The notes below the pieces were generated by a model, which made no database searches, was not told the origin of the DNA, and was given only the letters and a program-made list of their open reading frames with translations. Positions 14,524 through 22,444 of a stretch of DNA of 64,000 nucleotides are shown here, in pieces. The stretch lies in contig JAFSPU010000012.1 in the NCBI GenBank assembly GCA_017451265.1, forward strand, positions 186,001 to 250,000, given 5' to 3'. This DNA is from Clostridiales bacterium (GTDB lineage Bacteria > Bacillota > Clostridia > Saccharofermentanales > Saccharofermentanaceae). How positions within the stretch are numbered: position 1 is the first letter of the stretch; every line of letters begins with the position of its first letter. A program made the translations under genes and the position numbers.

Positions 14524-14593
14524 TTATACGTGGCGGTTTTTCCGCATTCAGCAGTTTTCAGTCAATTTTATGTTAATAAGAAAGAGGCGAATT

Positions 14594-15109
14594 ATGACAT
14601 TCTCGAAGGGAGAAACTGTAGTCTATGGCGGCAGCGGCGTTTGCGAGATCGATGATATCAAAGACATCCGTTTTTACCATGAGCGTCCTCAGAAATATTA
14701 CATACTCAGACCTCTCTTCGTTAACCAGGCTCAGGTAGTCTATGTTCCTTATAATAATGAGAAGCTGACTGCCAAGATCAAGCCCGTCATCTCCAAGAAG
14801 GAAGCACTGGAACTCATCCATCACATCGATGAGAACGATGTTGAGTGGATTGAGGACAGGAATGCACGTAAGGAGGCTTTTAACGGCCTGCTCAGCAGCG
14901 GTGACAGAAGAAATATCATTAACCTTATAAGCACCATTACAGAGAAGAGAAAGATGCTCGAGGAAGAGGGCAAGAGCCTGAACCAGCAGGATGAGAAGAT
15001 CCTGACTGATGCTCAGAGACGTATGGATGCAGAATTCGCAGTGGCTTTAGGCATGGATCCCCATGAGATCCCCACTTTTATTGAGGAAGAGAAAGCCAAG
15101 GTAAGCTGA
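14594..15109 (+). CDS. CarD/CdnL-type RNA polymerase-binding regulator
   Basis: 171 residues. The first 60 form the CarD_CdnL_TRCF domain (FSKGETVVYGGSGVCEIDDI, then YYILRPLF...VYVPYNN), which binds the beta subunit of RNA polymerase. The rest is a helical DNA-contacting domain rich in charged residues. CarD proteins steady open promoter complexes, often at rRNA and growth genes. An upstream in-frame ATG at 14570 exists, but AAGAGG lies properly before 14594. It stands alone between a terminator and the aromatic operon promoter. Confidence 0.85.
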   Translation: MTFSKGETVVYGGSGVCEIDDIKDIRFYHERPQKYYILRPLFVNQAQVVYVPYNNEKLTAKIKPVISKKEALELIHHIDENDVEWIEDRNARKEAFNGLLSSGDRRNIINLISTITEKRKMLEEEGKSLNQQDEKILTDAQRRMDAEFAVALGMDPHEIPTFIEEEKAKVS

Positions 15110-15123
15110 AACAGTATTTTCGC

Positions 15124-15152
15124 TTGACAATTTTTATTGTGGGTTGTTTAAT
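15124..15152 (+). promoter_or_regulatory. Promoter of the aromatic operon
   Basis: TTGACA (15124-15129), 17 bases, TTTAAT (15147-15152). The leader-peptide ATG lies seven bases further on, at 15160, which is the expected transcription start, so the leader peptide itself seems to be read from a leaderless end. Confidence 0.85.
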
Positions 15153-15159
15153 TAACGAC

Positions 15160-15222
15160 ATGAACAGAAACTTTTACGCTTATGCATACAACTATTATTA
15201 CTACTTTACGAACGTGAAGTAA
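15160..15222 (+). CDS. Tyrosine-rich attenuator leader peptide
   Basis: A 20-codon reading frame, MNRNFYAYAYNYYYYFTNVK, with seven Tyr and two Phe codons, four of the Tyr in a row (codons 12-15). It lies between a strong promoter and a strong terminator in front of the DAHP synthase gene. Its job is to report charged tRNA-Tyr (and perhaps tRNA-Phe): ribosome stalling here controls the pairing downstream. It has no Shine-Dalgarno site and starts at the predicted first base of the mRNA. No T-box element is seen, so this replaces the usual Bacillota device. Confidence 0.9.
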   Translation: MNRNFYAYAYNYYYYFTNVK

Positions 15223-15294
15223 GAGTGGTTTGTGCAAGCAGGAAAGTTAATGGGAATAAATGATTAAGCTGATCAGGCGCCGCACGAATCACTC
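15223..15294 (+). promoter_or_regulatory. Antiterminator pairing of the aro attenuator
   Basis: GAGTGGTTTGTGC (15223-15235) begins with the base after the leader stop codon. It can pair with GCACGAATCACTC (15282-15294) over 13 continuous pairs, two of them G-U. The second strand includes the terminator loop and part of both terminator arms, so the two structures exclude each other. A ribosome at the stop codon would cover the first strand and favour termination. A ribosome stalled on the Tyr codons would leave it free. Confidence 0.8.
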
Positions 15295-15308
15295 GGGCGG
15301 CGCTTTTT
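15277..15308 (+). terminator. Attenuator terminator of the aro operon
   Basis: GCGCCGC (15277-15283) pairs with GCGGCGC (15297-15303). Inside, after one mismatch, CGA (15285-15287) pairs with TCG (15293-15295) around a 5-base loop. Five T bases follow at once (15304-15308). The aroF ATG lies 50 bases downstream with its own AGGAGG. Confidence 0.9.
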
Positions 15309-15358
15309 ATGCCGCCGAATGAGAAAGGCGCCGGATAAACATCTAGGAGGATGAAAAC

Positions 15359-16357
15359 ATGATAGCAGTACTTAAGGAAACAGCGACCGAACAACAGATC
15401 GTGAACCTGGTGAATTGGTTCGAGTCTCAGGGCTTGAAGGTAAACCGTTCACAGGGTGACTTCGTAACGATCTTAGGCCTCATCGGAGACACAACAAAGA
15501 TCGATATCGATCTTTTAAGAGGTCTCGACATCATCGACAATGTAATGAGAATTTCCGAGCCCTTCAAGAAGGCCAACAGAAAGTTCCATCCCGAGGACAC
15601 GGTTGTCGACATCGGAGGCGTTAAGATCGGCGGCGGCAACTTCGCTGTTATGGCAGGTCCCTGCTCAGTAGAGAACGAGGAGCAGATCATCGAGACTGCC
15701 AAGGCTGTTAAGGCTGCAGGCGCAACTCTCTTAAGAGGCGGCGCATACAAGCCCAGAACTTCTCCTTACGACTTCCAGGGACTTCATGAGGAAGGTATCA
15801 GACTTCTTATCAAGGCAAGAGAGATCACAGGCCTTCCCATCGTATCCGAGATCATGAGCCCCGATCAGGTACCTGTCTTCGAGGATGTCGACTGTCTGCA
15901 GGTAGGTGCAAGAAACATGCAGAACTTCGACCTTCTCAAAGCCATCGGTAAGACAAACAAGCCTGTACTTCTCAAGCGCGGTCTCTCCGCTACCATCAAG
16001 GAGTGGCTCATGAGCGCAGAGTACATCATGTCTGAGGGCAACCCTAACGTAATCCTCTGCGAGCGCGGTATCAGAACATACGAGACATACACAAGAAATA
16101 CTTTCGACGTAAGTGCTATCTCTGCGTTGAAGGAGCTTACACATCTTCCTGTTGTCGGAGATCCTTCTCATGCCACAGGTAAGGTTTCACTCATCAAGCC
16201 TATGGCTATGGCAGCTGTAGTATCCGGTGCAGACGGACTTGAGATCGAGGTTCATAACTGCCCGAAGAAGGCTCTGTCCGATGCAGCACAGCAGCTCACA
16301 CCTGAGCAGTTCGTAGGTGTAATGAAGGATATCGAGAAGGCAAGGAGCATACTCTGA
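15359..16357 (+). CDS. aroF: 3-deoxy-7-phosphoheptulonate (DAHP) synthase
   Basis: 332 residues, of the AroA-I-beta/KDPS-like type. An N-terminal regulatory domain of about 70 residues (ferredoxin-like, [19 protein letters not shown]) precedes the TIM barrel, which holds [29 protein letters not shown] and VGDPSHATG. It joins phosphoenolpyruvate and erythrose 4-phosphate, the first step of the shikimate pathway. The N-terminal domain suggests feedback control by aromatic amino acids. AGGAGG lies nine bases before ATG. It is the first structural gene behind the Tyr attenuator and overlaps tyrA by one base. Confidence 0.95.
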
Positions 16358-17202
16358 TGAAGATCACAGTCGGTGTAGTAGGATTAGGACTTATAGGAGC
16401 ATCTTTCTGCAAGGCGTATAAGGCGAATGAGCCTGAAGCTGTTGTTTACGGCTGGAACAGGACGAAGTCTACGACCGAGATGGCTAAGATGCAGGGCGTT
16501 ATTGACGATGAATTGACGGATGAGAATCTCGGTTCATGTGACCTTGTTATCCTGAGCCTTTACCCCGAAGCTTCCGCTAAGTGGATGGAAGAGCACCGAA
16601 GCAGTTTCAATAAGAACGGTATCGTGACCGATGCCTGCGGAACGAAGAGATTCATCTGCGAAAAGGCATTTAAGATCGCGCAAGAGGAAGGCTTCACTTT
16701 CGTAGGATGTCACCCCATGGCAGGAACAAAGTTCTCCGGTATGGCATATTCCAAGGCGGATATGTACGAGGGAGCACCCATGGTTGTCGTACCTCCCAGG
16801 TTTGACGATATTAACCTGCTTGAGGAAGTGAAGAAGCTTTTCGCTCCCTGCAAGTTCGGTTCCTTCCACATCGCTCATGCTGATGAGCACGATCAGATGA
16901 TCGCTTTCACATCACAGATGCCGCACGTGGTTTCCAATGCATTCATTAAGAGCCCTAACTCCAGAAAGCACACTGGTTTCTCCGCAGGTTCTTATAAGGA
17001 TATGACTCGCGTAGCCTGGCTGAATCCCACCATGTGGACACAGCTCTTCCTCGAGAACAAGGACCATCTGATCTTCGAGATCGATAATCTTCAGAAGGAG
17101 CTTCAGAAGTACAAGGAAGCTTTGGAGAATGACGATGCCGAAGAACTGACCAGACTTCTTGATGAGGGAAGAAAGATCAAGGAAGAGGTTGACGGAGTAT
17201 GA
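16357..17202 (+). CDS. tyrA: Prephenate dehydrogenase
   Basis: 281 residues. The N-terminal Rossmann fold begins VGVVGLGLIGASF (GxGxxG). The conserved GCHPMAGTKFSGM and the helical domain with HDQMIAFTSQMPHVVSNAF match TyrA, which turns prephenate into 4-hydroxyphenylpyruvate, the tyrosine precursor, using NAD(P). No ACT domain is fused, unlike some TyrA proteins, so control probably comes from the operon's attenuator. Its presence right after aroF fits a tyrosine-reading leader. It overlaps aroF by one base and aroB by four. Confidence 0.93.
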   Translation: MKITVGVVGLGLIGASFCKAYKANEPEAVVYGWNRTKSTTEMAKMQGVIDDELTDENLGSCDLVILSLYPEASAKWMEEHRSSFNKNGIVTDACGTKRFICEKAFKIAQEEGFTFVGCHPMAGTKFSGMAYSKADMYEGAPMVVVPPRFDDINLLEEVKKLFAPCKFGSFHIAHADEHDQMIAFTSQMPHVVSNAFIKSPNSRKHTGFSAGSYKDMTRVAWLNPTMWTQLFLENKDHLIFEIDNLQKELQKYKEALENDDAEELTRLLDEGRKIKEEVDGV

Positions 17203-18281
17203 TCAGAACTACAGTCAGCGCCTCCAGAGAGTATGAGGTTATTACGGGTTCCGGACTTCTTTCCGAGTCCGGCAAGATCATAAGAAGTGTTGCACCTAAT
17301 GCGATCAAAGCCCTCATAGTAACGGAGACGAATGTAGCTCCTTTATATCTTGATAAAGTTAAGGCTGCCGTTCAGGCCGAAGGTTTCGAAGTTTATGAGT
17401 ATATCTTCGAGGCCGGAGAAGAGTCCAAGAACATCAACTCCATAGCAGGCATGTGGGGCGTTATGGCCAAGGCCGGCTTCACGAGGACTGATCTGGTGAT
17501 CGCACTCGGCGGCGGTGTCACGGGTGACATGGCAGGCTTTGCCGCAGCTTCCTTCTTAAGGGGCATCGATGTCGTTCAGATCCCCACGTCCTTGCTCGCC
17601 ATGGTGGATGCGGCAGTAGGAGGCAAGACCGGCATTGACCTTCCCGAGGGTAAGAATCAGGTTGGTGCCTTCTGGCAGCCTTCGGTTGTTATCGAGGACA
17701 CGGACTGCCTGCTTACGCTTTCTGACGAGAAGTTCACCGAGGGCATGGGCGAGGTCCTGAAGTACGCTTTCATCATGGACCTTCCCCTCTACGAGTTCCT
17801 CCGCGAAAACGCTTCGCGCGGCATCGCCATCAGAGAGGACGCTTGGCTCAAGGAGAAGATCGTAGGCATGTGCGTCGCCGATAAGGCAGACGTGGTTTCT
17901 AACGACGAGCACGACAACGGCAGAAGACAGACATTAAACTTCGGTCACACTGTAGGTCACGTAATCGAGAGAGACAGCGGCTTCAGTAAGCTTCACGGCG
18001 TATGTGTCGCGAAGGGTATGGGCATCATTATCGATGCGTGTGAGGGCGCAGGCACACTGGCGGCAGAAGAAGCACAGAAGATGAGAGATCTCATTAAGGC
18101 TTACGGTCTTCCCGTGGATGACGACATTACTCCCGAGGCTGCTGTTTCAGGTGCCATGAACGATAAGAAGAAAAGAGGCAATACGCTCTCCATTATCGTC
18201 GTAAATAAGATCGGTACATCCGAGATAAGAAAGATGAGCCCCGAGGAGTTCAAGTCATTCCTCGAAGGAGCAAAGAGATAA
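17199..18281 (+). CDS. aroB: 3-dehydroquinate synthase
   Basis: 360 residues, the usual length. The NAD-binding segment GGGVTGDMAGFAAASFLRGI, then PTSLLAMVDAAVGGKTGID, and the zinc ligands in the Glu of EGMGEVLKYAFI, the His of NFGHTVGHVIE and the later His of LHGVCVAKGM are all present. It closes DAHP to 3-dehydroquinate, the second pathway step. The ATGA overlap with tyrA and the one-base gap to aroA show tight translational coupling. Confidence 0.95.
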   Translation: MIRTTVSASREYEVITGSGLLSESGKIIRSVAPNAIKALIVTETNVAPLYLDKVKAAVQAEGFEVYEYIFEAGEESKNINSIAGMWGVMAKAGFTRTDLVIALGGGVTGDMAGFAAASFLRGIDVVQIPTSLLAMVDAAVGGKTGIDLPEGKNQVGAFWQPSVVIEDTDCLLTLSDEKFTEGMGEVLKYAFIMDLPLYEFLRENASRGIAIREDAWLKEKIVGMCVADKADVVSNDEHDNGRRQTLNFGHTVGHVIERDSGFSKLHGVCVAKGMGIIIDACEGAGTLAAEEAQKMRDLIKAYGLPVDDDITPEAAVSGAMNDKKKRGNTLSIIVVNKIGTSEIRKMSPEEFKSFLEGAKR

Positions 18282-18282
18282 G

Positions 18283-19407
18283 ATGATAATCAGATTAAGG
18301 AACCGGGCTTTTGATTTTTCTGTTGATGCGCCGCCGAGTAAGTCGGTCTTCCACAGAGAGCTTATAGTCAGGTTCCTTAACGGATACGAGGATGATCTTG
18401 CGGTAACTTCCGGTGACAGCAAGGACATCGCGGCGACTAAGAATTGTCTGCAGGCGCTGCGTGACAGAAGTCTTGTCCTGGACTGTAATGAGTCAGGCTC
18501 CACATTAAGATTTATGATTCCCGTGGCGGCGGCATACCTTAAGGCGAACAACATCACAGGAAAGGTTGTTTTCAAGACCTCAGGCAGGCTCTATGACAGG
18601 CCCCTGGACGACCTGGAGAGCTGTCTTAAGGATCACGGTGTCACGCTCGTAAGAGATGACAGCACTCGCACCATAAGCCTTGCAGGTGTGCTTATGGAAG
18701 GAGTATTCACGATAGATGGAAGCGTCTCGTCCCAGTATGTGTCCGGTATCATGATGGCGCTCATCGTCCTTCCCGGTTCTTCTGTAAACGTAGTCGGCAC
18801 GCCCTCGTCAGTTCACTACATCGAATTGACGCAGGCTGTTATAGACAAGTATAAAAACGCGCGCCATGAAGACTTTCTCGTGGAGGGAGACTGGTCAGGC
18901 GGAGCATTCCTTCTGTGCCTTAAGGAGCTTATCAACGGGAATATCAAAGTAGGAAACCTTAACAGAGATTCCGTTCAGGGTGATAAGGCCATCGAAGATT
19001 ATCTCGCTGCATGCGGCGCTGACGAGCTTACATGGGACTGCAGAGATATTCCCGATATCGTTCCGTATATGGCCGTGACCGCTGCATTCAATAATAAGAA
19101 GACAGTATTCGAGAACATCGGAAGGCTCCGCATAAAAGAGTCCGACCGCGTGGCTGCCATAAGGGAACAGCTCGCGGCTGCGGGTATAAAGACGGAAGAA
19201 ACAGAAGAGACTCTCACCGTTTACGGTTACGGCGGGACTTTTACAAATGATATGATTACACTTAAGTCGTACAACGATCACCGCATGGTGATGTCTGCGA
19301 TTTTGATCGCGGCGGCGCTTGGCACTGATCTTGAGATCGACACTGATGCACCCCTGGATAAATCGTTCCCGGGGTTCAGAAACATAATAAGAGAGGAGTT
19401 CTCTTAA
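18283..19407 (+). CDS. aroA: 3-phosphoshikimate 1-carboxyvinyltransferase (EPSP synthase)
   Basis: 374 residues, shorter than the usual 420-430. The substrate segments are seen: PPSKSVFHRE at the start, CNESGSTLRFMIP (the NxGTxxR-like loop in altered form), SSQYVSGIMMALIVLP, and RIKESDRVAAIREQL plus SYNDHRMVMSAILIAA near the end. It adds the enolpyruvyl group to shikimate 3-phosphate. The altered glyphosate-loop region (ESGSTLR in place of NAGTAMR) makes its herbicide sensitivity class unclear. It sits in the aro operon with one base between it and each neighbour. Confidence 0.93.
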   Translation: MIIRLRNRAFDFSVDAPPSKSVFHRELIVRFLNGYEDDLAVTSGDSKDIAATKNCLQALRDRSLVLDCNESGSTLRFMIPVAAAYLKANNITGKVVFKTSGRLYDRPLDDLESCLKDHGVTLVRDDSTRTISLAGVLMEGVFTIDGSVSSQYVSGIMMALIVLPGSSVNVVGTPSSVHYIELTQAVIDKYKNARHEDFLVEGDWSGGAFLLCLKELINGNIKVGNLNRDSVQGDKAIEDYLAACGADELTWDCRDIPDIVPYMAVTAAFNNKKTVFENIGRLRIKESDRVAAIREQLAAAGIKTEETEETLTVYGYGGTFTNDMITLKSYNDHRMVMSAILIAAALGTDLEIDTDAPLDKSFPGFRNIIREEFS

Positions 19408-19408
19408 C

Positions 19409-20503
19409 ATGAGTATGGACAGCACATTCAGGGGTGAGAGCCTGGAGCTTACGATCTACGGCCAGTCACACAGCCCCACGATCGGCGTATATATCAAGGG
19501 CCTTCCCGAGGGCGTTACGCCTGATCCTGAATTCACGGCAAAACTTATGGGCAGAAGAGCTCCCGGCAACAACGCGTGGTCCACTCCGCGCAAGGAGAAG
19601 GACGCGGTCATCTTCGAGTATGCTGAAGACGGCGCGCTTCACGGCTACATCGTAAACACCAACACAAAGCCCAAGGACTATGCTTCCATCATGAACAAGC
19701 CCAGGCCCGGCCATGCGGATTACACGGGCAAGATCAAGTACAAGGACGAGGCAGCGCAAAGCGGCGGCGGCATCTTCTCCGGAAGAATGACGGCCCCCAT
19801 GTGCATCGCGGGTTCCATTGCGCTGAATGAGCTTAATAAGATGGGCGTAAGCGTACACGCACACCTTAAAAAGTGCGGCGGCGTTTTGGACGACTCGTAC
19901 TACGATCATGCTGTTAATGATATTTCTTTTAAAGAGGCGCTCGCGGCTTCCGGCGGCAAGGAGTTCCCTGCGGTTTCCGATGAAGCGGGTGAGCTTATGA
20001 AAGCTGAGATCGAGAAGGCCAGGATGGACTGCGATTCTGTCGGTGCCGTGGTGGAGTGCGTTATCTACGGTCTGCCCGCAGGCCTCGGCGGTCCTATCTT
20101 CGACGGTCTCGAGGGTAAGATCGCGCGCCTTATCTATTCGATCCCTGCCGTTAAGGGCGTGGAGTTCGGCGCAGGTTTTGGCGCGGCAGACTTAAGAGGC
20201 TCCGAGAATAACGACCCCTTCGTAATGGAAGACGGGCAGGTTACGCTCAAGACAAACAACTGCGGAGGGATCCTGGGCGGCATAAGCGTCGGAGGCGGTG
20301 TTCCGCTGGTGTTCGATTGCGCATTTAAGCCCACTCCGTCTATCTCCAAGACGCAGGAGACGGTCGATCTTACGACCGGTACAAATACAGTCATCAATAT
20401 CGAGGGCAGGCACGATCCCTGTGTCGCTCCGCGCGCTGTTCCCGTGGTGGAGGCGGCCGCTGCGCTCGCTGTCTATGACGAGATCCTTAAGGAGAGAGCA
20501 TGA
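19409..20503 (+). CDS. aroC: Chorismate synthase
   Basis: 364 residues. Family segments include GESLELTIYGQSHSPTIGVYIKGLPEG at the start, RPGHADYTGKIKYKDEAAQSGGGIFSGRMTAP in the FMN-binding part, and NNCGGILGGISVGGGVPLVFDCAFKPTPSI. It makes chorismate from EPSP with reduced FMN. Some usually fixed residues differ (SGRMTAP in place of SARETA), as in other Clostridia-type AroC proteins. It starts one base after aroA stops and overlaps the next gene by four bases. Confidence 0.93.
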   Translation: MSMDSTFRGESLELTIYGQSHSPTIGVYIKGLPEGVTPDPEFTAKLMGRRAPGNNAWSTPRKEKDAVIFEYAEDGALHGYIVNTNTKPKDYASIMNKPRPGHADYTGKIKYKDEAAQSGGGIFSGRMTAPMCIAGSIALNELNKMGVSVHAHLKKCGGVLDDSYYDHAVNDISFKEALAASGGKEFPAVSDEAGELMKAEIEKARMDCDSVGAVVECVIYGLPAGLGGPIFDGLEGKIARLIYSIPAVKGVEFGAGFGAADLRGSENNDPFVMEDGQVTLKTNNCGGILGGISVGGGVPLVFDCAFKPTPSISKTQETVDLTTGTNTVINIEGRHDPCVAPRAVPVVEAAAALAVYDEILKERA

Positions 20504-22035
20504 AGACTCTTGAAGAATTAAGAAGACAGATAGATGCTGCGGATAAAGATATCCTCGATGCTTTCGACAGAAGACTCGCTGCCGCTAAGTGCATAGGCGA
20601 GATCAAGAGGATTCAGGGAAAGCCGATCTACGACGAGAAACGCGAGCAGGAGAAGATAGAGAGTCTTACCAAGCTTGCAGGATTTGAATCCAAGCAGTAT
20701 ATAGAAAGACTTTACACGGAGATAATGGGCATTGCTAAGGACCTGGAGTACAAGCCCCTGTTCGGCGTACTCGGCAAGTCCCTGCCGCACACATACTCGC
20801 CCGAGATCCACAGCATGATCACGTCCGACTATGCGTACACGGTAATCGAGCGTGAGGAGGATGAGCTTGAGGCTCTCTGGAAGCAGGGGGCAGACGGCAT
20901 CTACGGCGGCTTTAATGTCACCATTCCTTACAAGAAGAATGCCTGCGCAATGTGTGACGAGCTGACTTCATGTGCACGTGGGACCGGTGCGGTCAACACC
21001 GTAGTCTTCAGGAAGGACGGCACGAGCCTCGGCGCCAATACGGATGTCTACGGTTTTAAGTACATGCTTAAGTCATCCGGGATCGATCCAGCGGGAAAGA
21101 CGGTTCTTATTCTCGGCACGGGAGGCGCTTCGGCTGCGGTCAATGCCGCTCTTAAGGAGCTTAATGCAGGCGATATCAGATTCGTAAGCAGGAGCGGTGA
21201 GATCGACTACACTAATGTTTACGATGTGTGTGCTGATGCCGAAGTTATCGTCAACTGCACTCCCGTAGGAATGTATCCTGAGATAATGCAGTCGCCTGTC
21301 GATATCACGAGATTCAGCAAGCTCGAGGCTGTAGCTGATCTTATTTATAACCCGTCATGCACAAAGCTTTTGTATGATGCCGGGAACGCGGGCCTTAAGT
21401 GCGCAGGTGGTCTTAAGATGCTTGTGGCGCAGGCTTTCAAGGCATCCGCATTCTTCAGAGGTGCTTCTGATGACGAGGCTGCTGAGACCGCAGTTGATGC
21501 AGCTGATATCGAGCGTGTCACGGAAGTGCTTGAGAATAAGATGAAGAACATAACCATCATCGGCATGCCGGGTTCCGGTAAGTCCGCACTTGCGAGCGAG
21601 CTGTCGGTGCACCTTAACCGCGCGGTGACAGACCTTGACGATCTGTTCACGGAGACTTACGGAAAGACTCCCGCCCAGACCATAACCGAGGAAGGCGAAG
21701 ATTCTTTCAGGCGTAAAGAGAGTCTGGTGGCGGCCAAGGCCCTTGCGGGAAGCGGCGCAGTTATCTCGTGCGGAGGCGGTATCGTAACGCGTGAGGAGAA
21801 CTTCTTCCCCTTAAAGTGCAATTCTGTTGTTATCTATAACGAGCGTCCCCTGAATGTGCTGTGCGGCAAGGACAGACCCCTGACGGCACGGAACGGTGTG
21901 GAGGCTCTCTATGCGCAGCGCAGGGAAGCGTATGAGTCCCTTGCGGACATCGTGATAAGTGTTGGCAGTAAGGACACGCGCGAGGAATACCTTAAGGAGG
22001 CAGTGAGGATCTACGATGAAAATACTTGTACTTAA
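20500..22035 (+). CDS. Trifunctional chorismate mutase / shikimate dehydrogenase / shikimate kinase
   Basis: 511 residues in three joined parts. Residues 1-85 are an AroQ-type chorismate mutase helix set (LRRQIDAADKDILDAFDRRLAAAKCIGEIKR). About 88-345 is shikimate dehydrogenase AroE: GVLGKSLPHTYSPEIHS, GGFNVTIPYKK, ANTDVYGF and the Rossmann loop LGTGGASAAV. About 348-511 is shikimate kinase AroK: P-loop GMPGSGKS, DLDD, ESLVAAKAL and the CGGGIV segment. The fusion therefore holds two shikimate steps before chorismate and the first committed step after it. No frameshift is seen between parts. It overlaps aroQ by 20 bases. Confidence 0.92.
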   Translation: MKTLEELRRQIDAADKDILDAFDRRLAAAKCIGEIKRIQGKPIYDEKREQEKIESLTKLAGFESKQYIERLYTEIMGIAKDLEYKPLFGVLGKSLPHTYSPEIHSMITSDYAYTVIEREEDELEALWKQGADGIYGGFNVTIPYKKNACAMCDELTSCARGTGAVNTVVFRKDGTSLGANTDVYGFKYMLKSSGIDPAGKTVLILGTGGASAAVNAALKELNAGDIRFVSRSGEIDYTNVYDVCADAEVIVNCTPVGMYPEIMQSPVDITRFSKLEAVADLIYNPSCTKLLYDAGNAGLKCAGGLKMLVAQAFKASAFFRGASDDEAAETAVDAADIERVTEVLENKMKNITIIGMPGSGKSALASELSVHLNRAVTDLDDLFTETYGKTPAQTITEEGEDSFRRKESLVAAKALAGSGAVISCGGGIVTREENFFPLKCNSVVIYNERPLNVLCGKDRPLTARNGVEALYAQRREAYESLADIVISVGSKDTREEYLKEAVRIYDENTCT

Positions 22036-22444
22036 CGGACCTAACCTGAATATGCTCGGCGTACGCGAGCCCGACATCTACGGCAGGAGCACTTACACTG
22101 ACCTTATCAACATGATCAAAGATCACTGCGACAGCAAGGGCATCGAGGTCAGCTTTAAGCAGAGCAATCACGAGGGAGACCTGGTGGACTACATACAGCA
22201 GGCTTATTTCGAGAAGTATGACGGTATCGTGATCAACCCCGGAGCGTACACGCACACTTCTGTGGCGCTTCTGGATGCGCTCAAGGCGGTCTCTATCCCT
22301 GCGGTCGAAGTTCATATCAGCGACGTGGACGCCAGGGAAGAGTTCAGGCAGATTTCATACGTGTCCAAGATTGCGGTGAAGACCATCAAGGGACACGGTT
22401 TTGACGGCTACATCGAGGCCGTAGATTTCCTTTCCGAGAGGTAA
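22016..22444 (+). CDS. aroQ: 3-dehydroquinate dehydratase, type II
   Basis: 142 residues, the normal size of the dodecameric type II enzyme. Catalytic signatures are complete: NGPNLNMLGVREPDIYG at the start (the Tyr is the base), NPGAYTHTSVALLDAL, and EVHISDVDAREEFR with the key His. It turns 3-dehydroquinate into 3-dehydroshikimate. It starts inside the end of the trifunctional gene and is the last aro gene. With aroF, aroB, aroA, aroC and the AroE-AroK fusion it completes the route to chorismate. No terminator follows before the next gene. Confidence 0.95.
   Translation: MKILVLNGPNLNMLGVREPDIYGRSTYTDLINMIKDHCDSKGIEVSFKQSNHEGDLVDYIQQAYFEKYDGIVINPGAYTHTSVALLDALKAVSIPAVEVHISDVDAREEFRQISYVSKIAVKTIKGHGFDGYIEAVDFLSER

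Follow-up and report, generated by a model that had tools for sequence, protein, structure and literature searches.

A predicted leaderless tyrosine-codon attenuator before the aroF operon of a Clostridiales bacterium and its counterparts in related genomes

The aroF-tyrA-aroB-aroA-aroC-CM/aroE/aroK-aroQ operon found in the window (the whole stretch of 64,000 nucleotides that was analysed) is preceded by a short leader which is very probably a ribosome-mediated transcription attenuator sensing charged tRNA-Tyr, with its start site, ribosome stalling and read-through inferred from the DNA. An attenuator of this operon based on Tyr codons had been proposed in the initial annotation of the window, and this core of the proposal is well supported by homologues. 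The absence of a ribosome-binding site and the predicted leaderless start of the leader go beyond what had been observed then, and so does a parallel Phe leader before pheA elsewhere in the genome. Related to this, it seems somewhat likely that three sensors of tRNA charging operate per genome in this clade, whose members are uncultured (leaderless Tyr and Phe attenuators and a Trp T-box), and that the leaderless start is functional and was gained at aroF more than once in Clostridia.

The leader and the operon

The elements of the leader and the genes that it would control are the following:

15124-15129, + strand: -35 box TTGACA; the best-scoring promoter upstream of the leader start is TTGACA-17-TTTAAT
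15147-15152, + strand: -10 box TTTAAT, ending 7 bases 5' of the leader ATG; the 7-base gap is found in 5/5 members of the window clade
15158-15160, + strand: predicted transcription start, from promoter spacing; 5' UTR of 0-2 bases (leaderless)
ATG 15160 to TAA 15220-15222, + strand: leader peptide ORF MNRNFYAYAYNYYYYFTNVK, 20 codons including 7 Tyr and 2 Phe, kept in relatives
15178-15196, + strand: strand 1 (protector), inside codons Ala7-Tyr13; pairs with strand 2 in the minimum-energy fold of the whole leader, a pairing partly conserved
15223-15239, + strand: strand 2; 15223-15235 is the 5' strand of the antiterminator, GAGUGGUUUGUGC, and 15224-15239 also pairs with strand 1
15282-15294, + strand: strand 3, the 3' strand of the antiterminator, GCACGAAUCACUC; overlaps the 5' arm and the loop of the terminator
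15276-15304, + strand: intrinsic terminator hairpin (3:4), -19.0 kcal/mol, with covariation
15304-15308, + strand: U run of the terminator, 5 T
15359-16357, + strand: aroF, DAHP synthase with N-terminal ferredoxin-like domain (PF00793, PF18152), first controlled gene
16357-17202, + strand: tyrA, prephenate dehydrogenase (PF02153, PF20463)
17199-18281, + strand: aroB, 3-dehydroquinate synthase (PF01761, PF24621)
18283-19407, + strand: aroA, EPSP synthase (PF00275)
19409-20503, + strand: aroC, chorismate synthase (PF01264)
20500-22035, + strand: CM/aroE/aroK, chorismate mutase / shikimate dehydrogenase / shikimate kinase fusion (PF01817, PF08501, PF01202)
22016-22444, + strand: aroQ, type II dehydroquinase (PF01220)

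Direct reading confirmed the positions of the parts that had been reported before (the promoter, the 20-codon leader with seven Tyr and two Phe codons, the 13-pair strand after its stop codon and the terminator). GAGUGGUUUGUGC and GCACGAAUCACUC form 13 complementary pairs, two of them G-U, and the first base of strand 2 is the base directly after the leader stop codon. The antiterminator had been said to exclude the terminator, which agrees with the 2:3 pairing taking the 5' arm of the latter. A consensus scan of the window listed neither the leader promoter nor its terminator, probably because the rules of the scan require an A at position 2 of the -10 box and a loop of 3-8 bases. The seven operon genes lie on one strand, abutting or overlapping, and the CM/aroE/aroK fusion is a single protein of 511 residues. 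On the upstream side, a CarD-like gene (14570-15109) ends 14 bases 5' of the -35 box with no terminator listed between them; read-through RNA from this gene would contain the leader in untranslated form and would be expected to terminate.

The Tyr+Phe score of the leader ORF (4.05) is the highest among 2400 start points of small ORFs (10-45 codons) scanned on the two strands of the window, the best unrelated ORF of the window reaching 2.0 and the best of 20 shuffled windows 3.0, and 0/100 dinucleotide shuffles of the 300-base region upstream of aroF match it. The leader RNA (15159-15310) folds with -49.2 kcal/mol, compared with -29.7 +/- 3.4 kcal/mol for shuffles (z -5.7). The 2:3 pairing of the window taken alone is equalled by 3/200 shuffles of the upstream strand, and the main support for this predicted pairing is conservation rather than window statistics.

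The leader in related genomes

A homologue of aroF is present in 29/40 genomes searched (the window's own included), and in 23/24 of the genus. The search for conserved Tyr codons in related genomes, suggested earlier as a check, was positive: a Tyr/Phe leader stands before aroF in 22/23 genus loci and in 7/7 of the nearest loci of a wider sample (L032-L038). This wider sample consists of the best 80 of at least 591 aroF homologues listed, that is, of the most similar genes and not of an even sampling. Among its other 73 loci, 57 have a Tyr/Phe-rich ORF before aroF matched by 5/100 shuffles at most, a cut at which about 4/73 passes are expected by chance; L051, L057 and L099 passed it with no Tyr/Phe run and were excluded by eye from the 57, and L058, L066, L070 and L104 narrowly fail it yet resemble leaders. 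The second aroF copy of one genome (L031, G035) was excluded from the shuffle scan. The 57 loci are mostly from Clostridia, with labels such as Oscillospiraceae, Lachnospiraceae, Christensenella, Oscillibacter, Ruminococcus and the named strain Aminicella lysinilytica DSM 28287; a few wider loci are labelled Lentisphaerae, Treponema or Thermoguttaceae, where misbinning is possible for metagenome bins. The contigs nearest to the window are rumen and omasum bins, and the window's genome is estimated to be about 70% complete. The compared sequences are related, so that the counts given here and below are not independent and shuffle comparisons look better than is warranted.

In Bacillota, the tRNA sensor of the textbooks is the T-box. 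The premise of the initial annotation, that T-box or protein sensors are the usual solution in this phylum, holds in so far as T-boxes occur in genomes of the same genus, and was too strong in view of the peptide leaders that are widespread before aroF in Clostridia.

The 29 aroF leaders of the genus and near loci contain 179 Tyr and 84 Phe codons (L016 being left out of codon counts and folding). Several Tyr codons alternate between TAT and TAC in 14 close relatives, and the Tyr8 of the window is Phe in the other four members of its clade. In three close groups, the codons with replacements and those with synonymous changes only number 4 and 2, 2 and 2, and 6 and 2, respectively; replacements thus equal or exceed synonymous-only changes in all three, which counts against the attenuator explanation. 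Outside the aromatic run the peptide sequence diverges widely among relatives.

The genus exception is L016 (G020), in which 29 leader bases are gone and the ORF reads MLLLLL followed by a stop, with strands 2-4 kept; this change may reflect decay, an assembly error or an altered sensor. In the wider sample (L039-L111), the leaders of 47 loci in which tyrA adjoins aroF contain 190 Tyr and 191 Phe codons, and those of eight loci where neither tyrA nor pheA was found nearby contain 21 Tyr and 52 Phe codons (L053 being too short downstream). Judged from these counts, codon choice in aroF leaders may follow the content of the operon.

Conservation of the pairings

Pairs were counted in the 19/30 near sequences that share strand-2 type A1. 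For the 2:3 antiterminator, 98.6% of 209 cells (19 sequences) are paired, compared with 27-55% when the strands are slid by 1-3 columns, and the covariation score of this pairing is higher than in all 500 shuffles. Changes on both sides are found in 2/11 pairs (4/209 cells), as many as in 19/500 shuffles, and consist of U-A to C-G (two loci), U-A to A-U (one) and G-C to A-U (one); the number of further pair types is not above that of shuffles (485/500 as high). The covariation check on the 13-bp pairing that had been called for is therefore favourable in pairing frequency and score, with covariation that is modest on these alignments. The 3:4 terminator pairs form in 96.2% of cells, with both-side changes in 6/11 pairs (0/500 shuffles as high). 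Strand 2 and the Tyr-codon region (1:2) are paired in 74.6% of cells, best at leader UGCAUA against UGUGCA.

The other 11 near loci belong to type A2, with different strands 2 and 3, and were aligned outside the pair count. Their 2:3 duplexes have z values from -0.6 to -3.0, so the predicted pairing is weakly supported in some A2 loci. An intrinsic terminator is present in 29/29 near loci examined (L016 excluded), and among those of the 57 wider loci the hairpins of L075 (-3.0 kcal/mol) and L080 (-2.4 kcal/mol) are very weak.

Folding and the proposed switch

Folding was computed with a ribosome footprint reaching 12 bases beyond the first base of the A-site codon. In the window, the terminator is predicted to form with a probability of 0.98 when no ribosome is present. 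This value drops to 0.70 when the A site holds Tyr6, to 0.12 for Tyr8 and to 0.01 or less for Tyr10 to Tyr15, and returns to 0.98 at the stop codon. When the start of the free RNA is moved along the leader, the values are 0.98 for starts at 15160-15184, at most 0.05 for 15196-15223, and 0.98 again from 15226. The fold with a ribosome-covered leader, which had been recommended, is thus predicted to give antitermination at Tyr10-Tyr15 and termination at the stop codon. Stalling on codons 6-15 had been expected to antiterminate, and the model bears this out for codons 10-15 and largely for codon 8, and not for codon 6. The expectation that a ribosome at the stop codon masks the antiterminator strand is consistent with the value obtained there. 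The idea of a simple two-state switch was not upheld: strand 2 also pairs with the Tyr-codon region, which leads to a third, untranslated state predicted to terminate.

The mechanism proposed on this basis is the following. Transcription would begin at the leader AUG or within two bases of it, and the ribosome would load at the 5' end with no Shine-Dalgarno site. When tRNA-Tyr is charged, the ribosome would reach the stop codon (15220-15222) and its leading edge would mask most of strand 2; the 2:3 antiterminator could not then form, the 3:4 hairpin would fold and transcription would end. When charged tRNA-Tyr is scarce, the ribosome would stall on Tyr10-Tyr15, masking strand 1 and leaving strand 2 free, which would pair with strand 3 before strand 4 exists, and RNA polymerase would continue into aroF and the genes that follow. 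In an untranslated leader, strand 1 would capture strand 2 and the terminator would form.

At equilibrium, with strand 4 present, the best Tyr codon brings the terminator probability below 0.3 in 7/29 aroF loci (L023, L037 and all five loci of the window clade); the pheA loci (described below) reach this level with their best Phe codon in 1/18 cases. Within the window clade, the last Tyr codon of L004, L032 and L033 yields a probability of just 0.44-0.54. Equilibrium folding was therefore abandoned as the sole test of switching, since it works in the window clade and fails in most relatives, and a test with folding before strand 4 is made was used because of this failure. In the latter, the stalled state has more than four more strand-3 bases paired upstream than the stop state in 28/29 loci, compared with 114/580 shuffled spacers; among the wider loci the same difference exceeds four in 46/57, compared with 273/1140 shuffled spacers. 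The stalled-state value is equalled by at most 1/20 shuffles in 25/29 near and 37/57 wider loci. The contrast between 7/29 loci at equilibrium and 28/29 before strand 4 suggests that, for most relatives, it probably makes a difference in these models in what order the RNA folds. Strand 3 is freer in the untranslated than in the stalled leader, by more than two bases, in 19/29 loci (narrowly in L003, of the window clade), and this test fails in 10/29; the protector (1:2) pairing is not universal among relatives. Among the pheA leaders, 12/18 switch in the test before strand 4 and 7/18 show the protector effect.

The predicted leaderless start

Seven bases separate the -10 box from the ATG in the window and in L003, L004, L032 and L033, and the Shine-Dalgarno matches of these five leaders are poor (0 to -2.2 kcal/mol). 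The corresponding distance is 23-37 bases in the 24 remaining near leaders, of which 23 have a Shine-Dalgarno site of -5.7 kcal/mol or better (L018, -3.3 kcal/mol). The aroF gene itself has a match of -4 kcal/mol or better in 97% of 109 loci. The leader of the window clade is accordingly predicted to be leaderless, in the sense of an mRNA whose 5' end falls no more than about 5 bases from the start codon. In the aroF tree this clade is supported by 100/99 and nested in a genus group, also at 100/99, in which the remaining leaders carry Shine-Dalgarno sites. Eight loci form another group labelled leaderless, three of which (L067, L078, L097) were labelled by eye and received no leaderless flag from the promoter-spacing script. 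The leaderless label changes four times on the tree, at least three of these changes being forced by strongly supported branches, and some of them may be losses; the opposite tree label (SD_leader) was given to every remaining locus that passed the shuffle cut, L029, L051, L057 and L099 among them. If leaderless initiation is a working feature, the ribosome would load as soon as the 5' end emerges from RNA polymerase.

The window's genome contains 88 copies of the pattern TATAAT-N5-7-ATG, compared with 51 for a reversed control, and the pattern exceeds this control in 15/15 genomes (12 from the genus, 3 from the order), by a narrow margin in G021 (184 against 175). Thirty such sites were inspected in the window's genome (2 not located), and 14 open ORFs of at least 100 codons. 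This excess over a control that is crude suggests that leaderless genes may be frequent in this group.

Leaders of pheA and the T-box of trpE

A match to prephenate dehydratase is found in 21/24 genomes searched, and in 18 of these 21, which belong to the genus, a Phe-rich leader (5-10 Phe and 0-1 Tyr codons) and a terminator precede its gene; of the remaining three loci, one is cut by the contig end and two have no leader. The corresponding features of the window's genome are:

L122:1034-1102 (G000:C12:32924-32992): pheA leader MNRKSFTSFDFFFGFGFFTRSE, 8 Phe and 0 Tyr codons, predicted leaderless, with its own terminator
G000:C5:68614-68855 (L142:3002-3243), - strand: T-box about 150 bases upstream of trpE, apparent specifier UGG as read from the alignment

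The -10 box ends 6-7 bases before the start in 18/18 pheA leaders, four starts (L119, L125, L130, L132) having been moved by hand to another in-frame ATG for promoter spacing. The script flags 16/18 as leaderless. A stretch resembling a Shine-Dalgarno site occurs in L129 and L140; its position would place it upstream of the predicted start. With the starts as scanned, the 18 leaders contain 2 Tyr and 127 Phe codons, one of the two Tyr lying in the part of L130 removed by the start move and the other in L134. Comparison of these numbers with the 179 Tyr and 84 Phe of the aroF leaders indicates that leader codons follow the branch of the pathway, with Tyr at aroF and Phe at pheA. A T-box lies just upstream of trpE in at least 17/22 genomes with trpE (matched by eye). 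The same genome thus appears, from its sequence, to use peptide leaders for the Tyr and Phe branches and a T-box for the Trp branch.

Alternative explanations

The leader might be translated from a longer transcript, arising by read-through from the CarD-like gene or from another promoter and possibly starting at GTG 15139, instead of being leaderless. The -10 box is TTTAAT rather than TATAAT, in-frame GTG (15139) and TTG (15124) codons exist, and no terminator is listed between the end of the CarD-like gene (15109) and the promoter. However, GTG 15139 lies upstream of the -10 box, the -35/-10 pair is placed 7 bases from the ATG in 5/5 clade members with no good Shine-Dalgarno match, the other 24 leaders differ from them in both respects, and the pheA leaders (four starts moved by hand) have a like spacing; a longer transcript is regarded as improbable. 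A second question is whether the leader responds to Phe as well as to Tyr, as a general aromatic sensor. The Tyr run is flanked by two Phe codons, and the 47 wider leaders whose aroF adjoins tyrA use both codons in nearly equal numbers. Nevertheless, the antiterminating stall codons of the window are Tyr8, Tyr10 and Tyr12-15, with Phe16 added by the edge scan, and Tyr dominates in the genus and near loci, Phe being left to the pheA leader. A sensor mainly of Tyr is preferred, and the general aromatic sensor is considered rather unlikely, if less so than a longer transcript.

Two further explanations would deprive the ORF of its role in attenuation. The peptide could be a small functional product and the hairpin a plain terminator of upstream transcription; a trans-acting leader peptide, peTrpL, has been reported in Sinorhizobium meliloti (PMC7298713), but the peptides compared here diverge widely outside the aromatic run, and in some relatives the ORF runs through strand 2 (L005 has one base more) and the RNA of this strand is preserved, which makes this explanation very improbable. 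Control of the terminator by a T-box, another ligand riboswitch or a protein-bound attenuator, with the ORF incidental, is given slightly less credit still. T-boxes do occur in 30/30 genus genomes sampled (28/30 above the family cut-off), but the site gives no Rfam match at the family cut-offs, the six matches obtained at a relaxed threshold are far below the cut-offs (best E 0.085) and none is a T-box (E up to 5), and the conserved features are aromatic codons and pairings that turn on the stop codon of the leader. Eighteen aroF loci in which the leader is absent or doubtful were also searched for a T-box and gave no Rfam match at the gathering threshold; three of them (L055, L075, L110) are counted among the 57 with a leader. 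Attenuation mediated by the translating ribosome remains the preferred reading.

Relation to known systems

The trp, pheA and his operons of E. coli have the classical ribosome-mediated attenuators of amino-acid biosynthesis. The leader of the window resembles them in its short ORF rich in codons for the product, its mutually exclusive hairpins and its terminator before the first biosynthetic gene, and differs from them in that Tyr codons precede a DAHP synthase/shikimate/tyrA operon, in the predicted leaderless start and in its occurrence in Clostridia. A similar motif, uORFC-13-1, is described in PMC8632094. It is a short ORF before aroF that contains a U run coding for Phe and lies beside what seems to be an intrinsic terminator; it has been proposed to work via the speed of Phe incorporation, and is reported from Acholeplasma and environmental DNA only (24 sequences). 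Its published consensus includes a ribosome-binding site, the start, the Phe-coding U run and an extra stem. By comparison with that text description, the leader of the window is dominated by Tyr and has no ribosome-binding site. Besides, two candidate uORFs encoding Phe and Tyr at shikimate-pathway genes come from a screen of five genomes including Clostridium novyi (PMC6429828); their host organisms are not given in the main text, and they may be related to the leader of the window.

Leaderless leader peptides have been described for trpL of Sinorhizobium meliloti (PMC7298713), for several leaders of Streptomyces lividans, e.g. trpL1, leuL and ilvL (PMC8079986), and for ilvBNC of Corynebacterium glutamicum (PMC11857589). 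According to these sources the attenuator ORF stands at the 5' end of the transcript, as is predicted for the window, but they concern Alphaproteobacteria and Actinomycetota whereas the window is from Clostridia. In Bacillota, no strictly leaderless transcript was reported for Bacillus methanolicus by authors who cite predictions that about 25% of Firmicutes species have leaderless genes (PMC4342826), and 15 potential leaderless transcripts were reported for Clostridioides difficile (PMC7438776); as far as these sources go, leaderless mRNAs are fewer in Bacillota but not absent. Peptide leaders of this phylum include that of hisZ/hisS* in bacilli (PMC2965389) and the Leu-rich attenuator peptide of Staphylococcus aureus (PMC5794164), which are Bacillota peptide leaders as here, but for other amino acids and other operons. 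Among the matches listed in the open-access literature, neither a Tyr/Phe leader for aroF/pheA in Clostridia, nor any leaderless peptide attenuator in Clostridia, nor the division of Tyr, Phe and Trp among sensors was described, apart from the candidates named above. Peptide attenuators and leaderless leader peptides are known elsewhere.

Peptide leaders (Tyr, Phe) and a T-box (Trp) in one genome allow both solutions to be compared in one cell. The natural variety of the leaders (Tyr-rich, Phe-rich or mixed; leaderless or with a Shine-Dalgarno site; stop codon before or after strand 2) makes the rules of attenuation testable by comparison, and leaderless leaders, if true, would bear on the timing of ribosome loading relative to RNA polymerase. 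The proposed switch would govern the aromatic amino acid pathway of rumen and gut bacteria.

Other variation among the leaders

An inverted repeat, CCGCAG ... yTGCGG, is conserved with variable spacing in 15/30 near loci (L008-L015, L017, L019-L022, L035, L036). It takes in the predicted transcription start as well as leader codons 3-5 and may be an RBS hairpin or an operator; as a transcribed 5' hairpin near the leader RBS it was set aside, with the predicted start falling in the first arm and the folds being weak.

In L005, L006, L034, L019-L022, L036 and L037 the leader ORF extends into or through strand 2, the RNA of which is conserved; one added base in L005 makes its ORF read through this strand. 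The extended peptides end in VRVVCA, KVVCA, GAVCA or GLCA, and their stop codon is shifted relative to the antiterminator.
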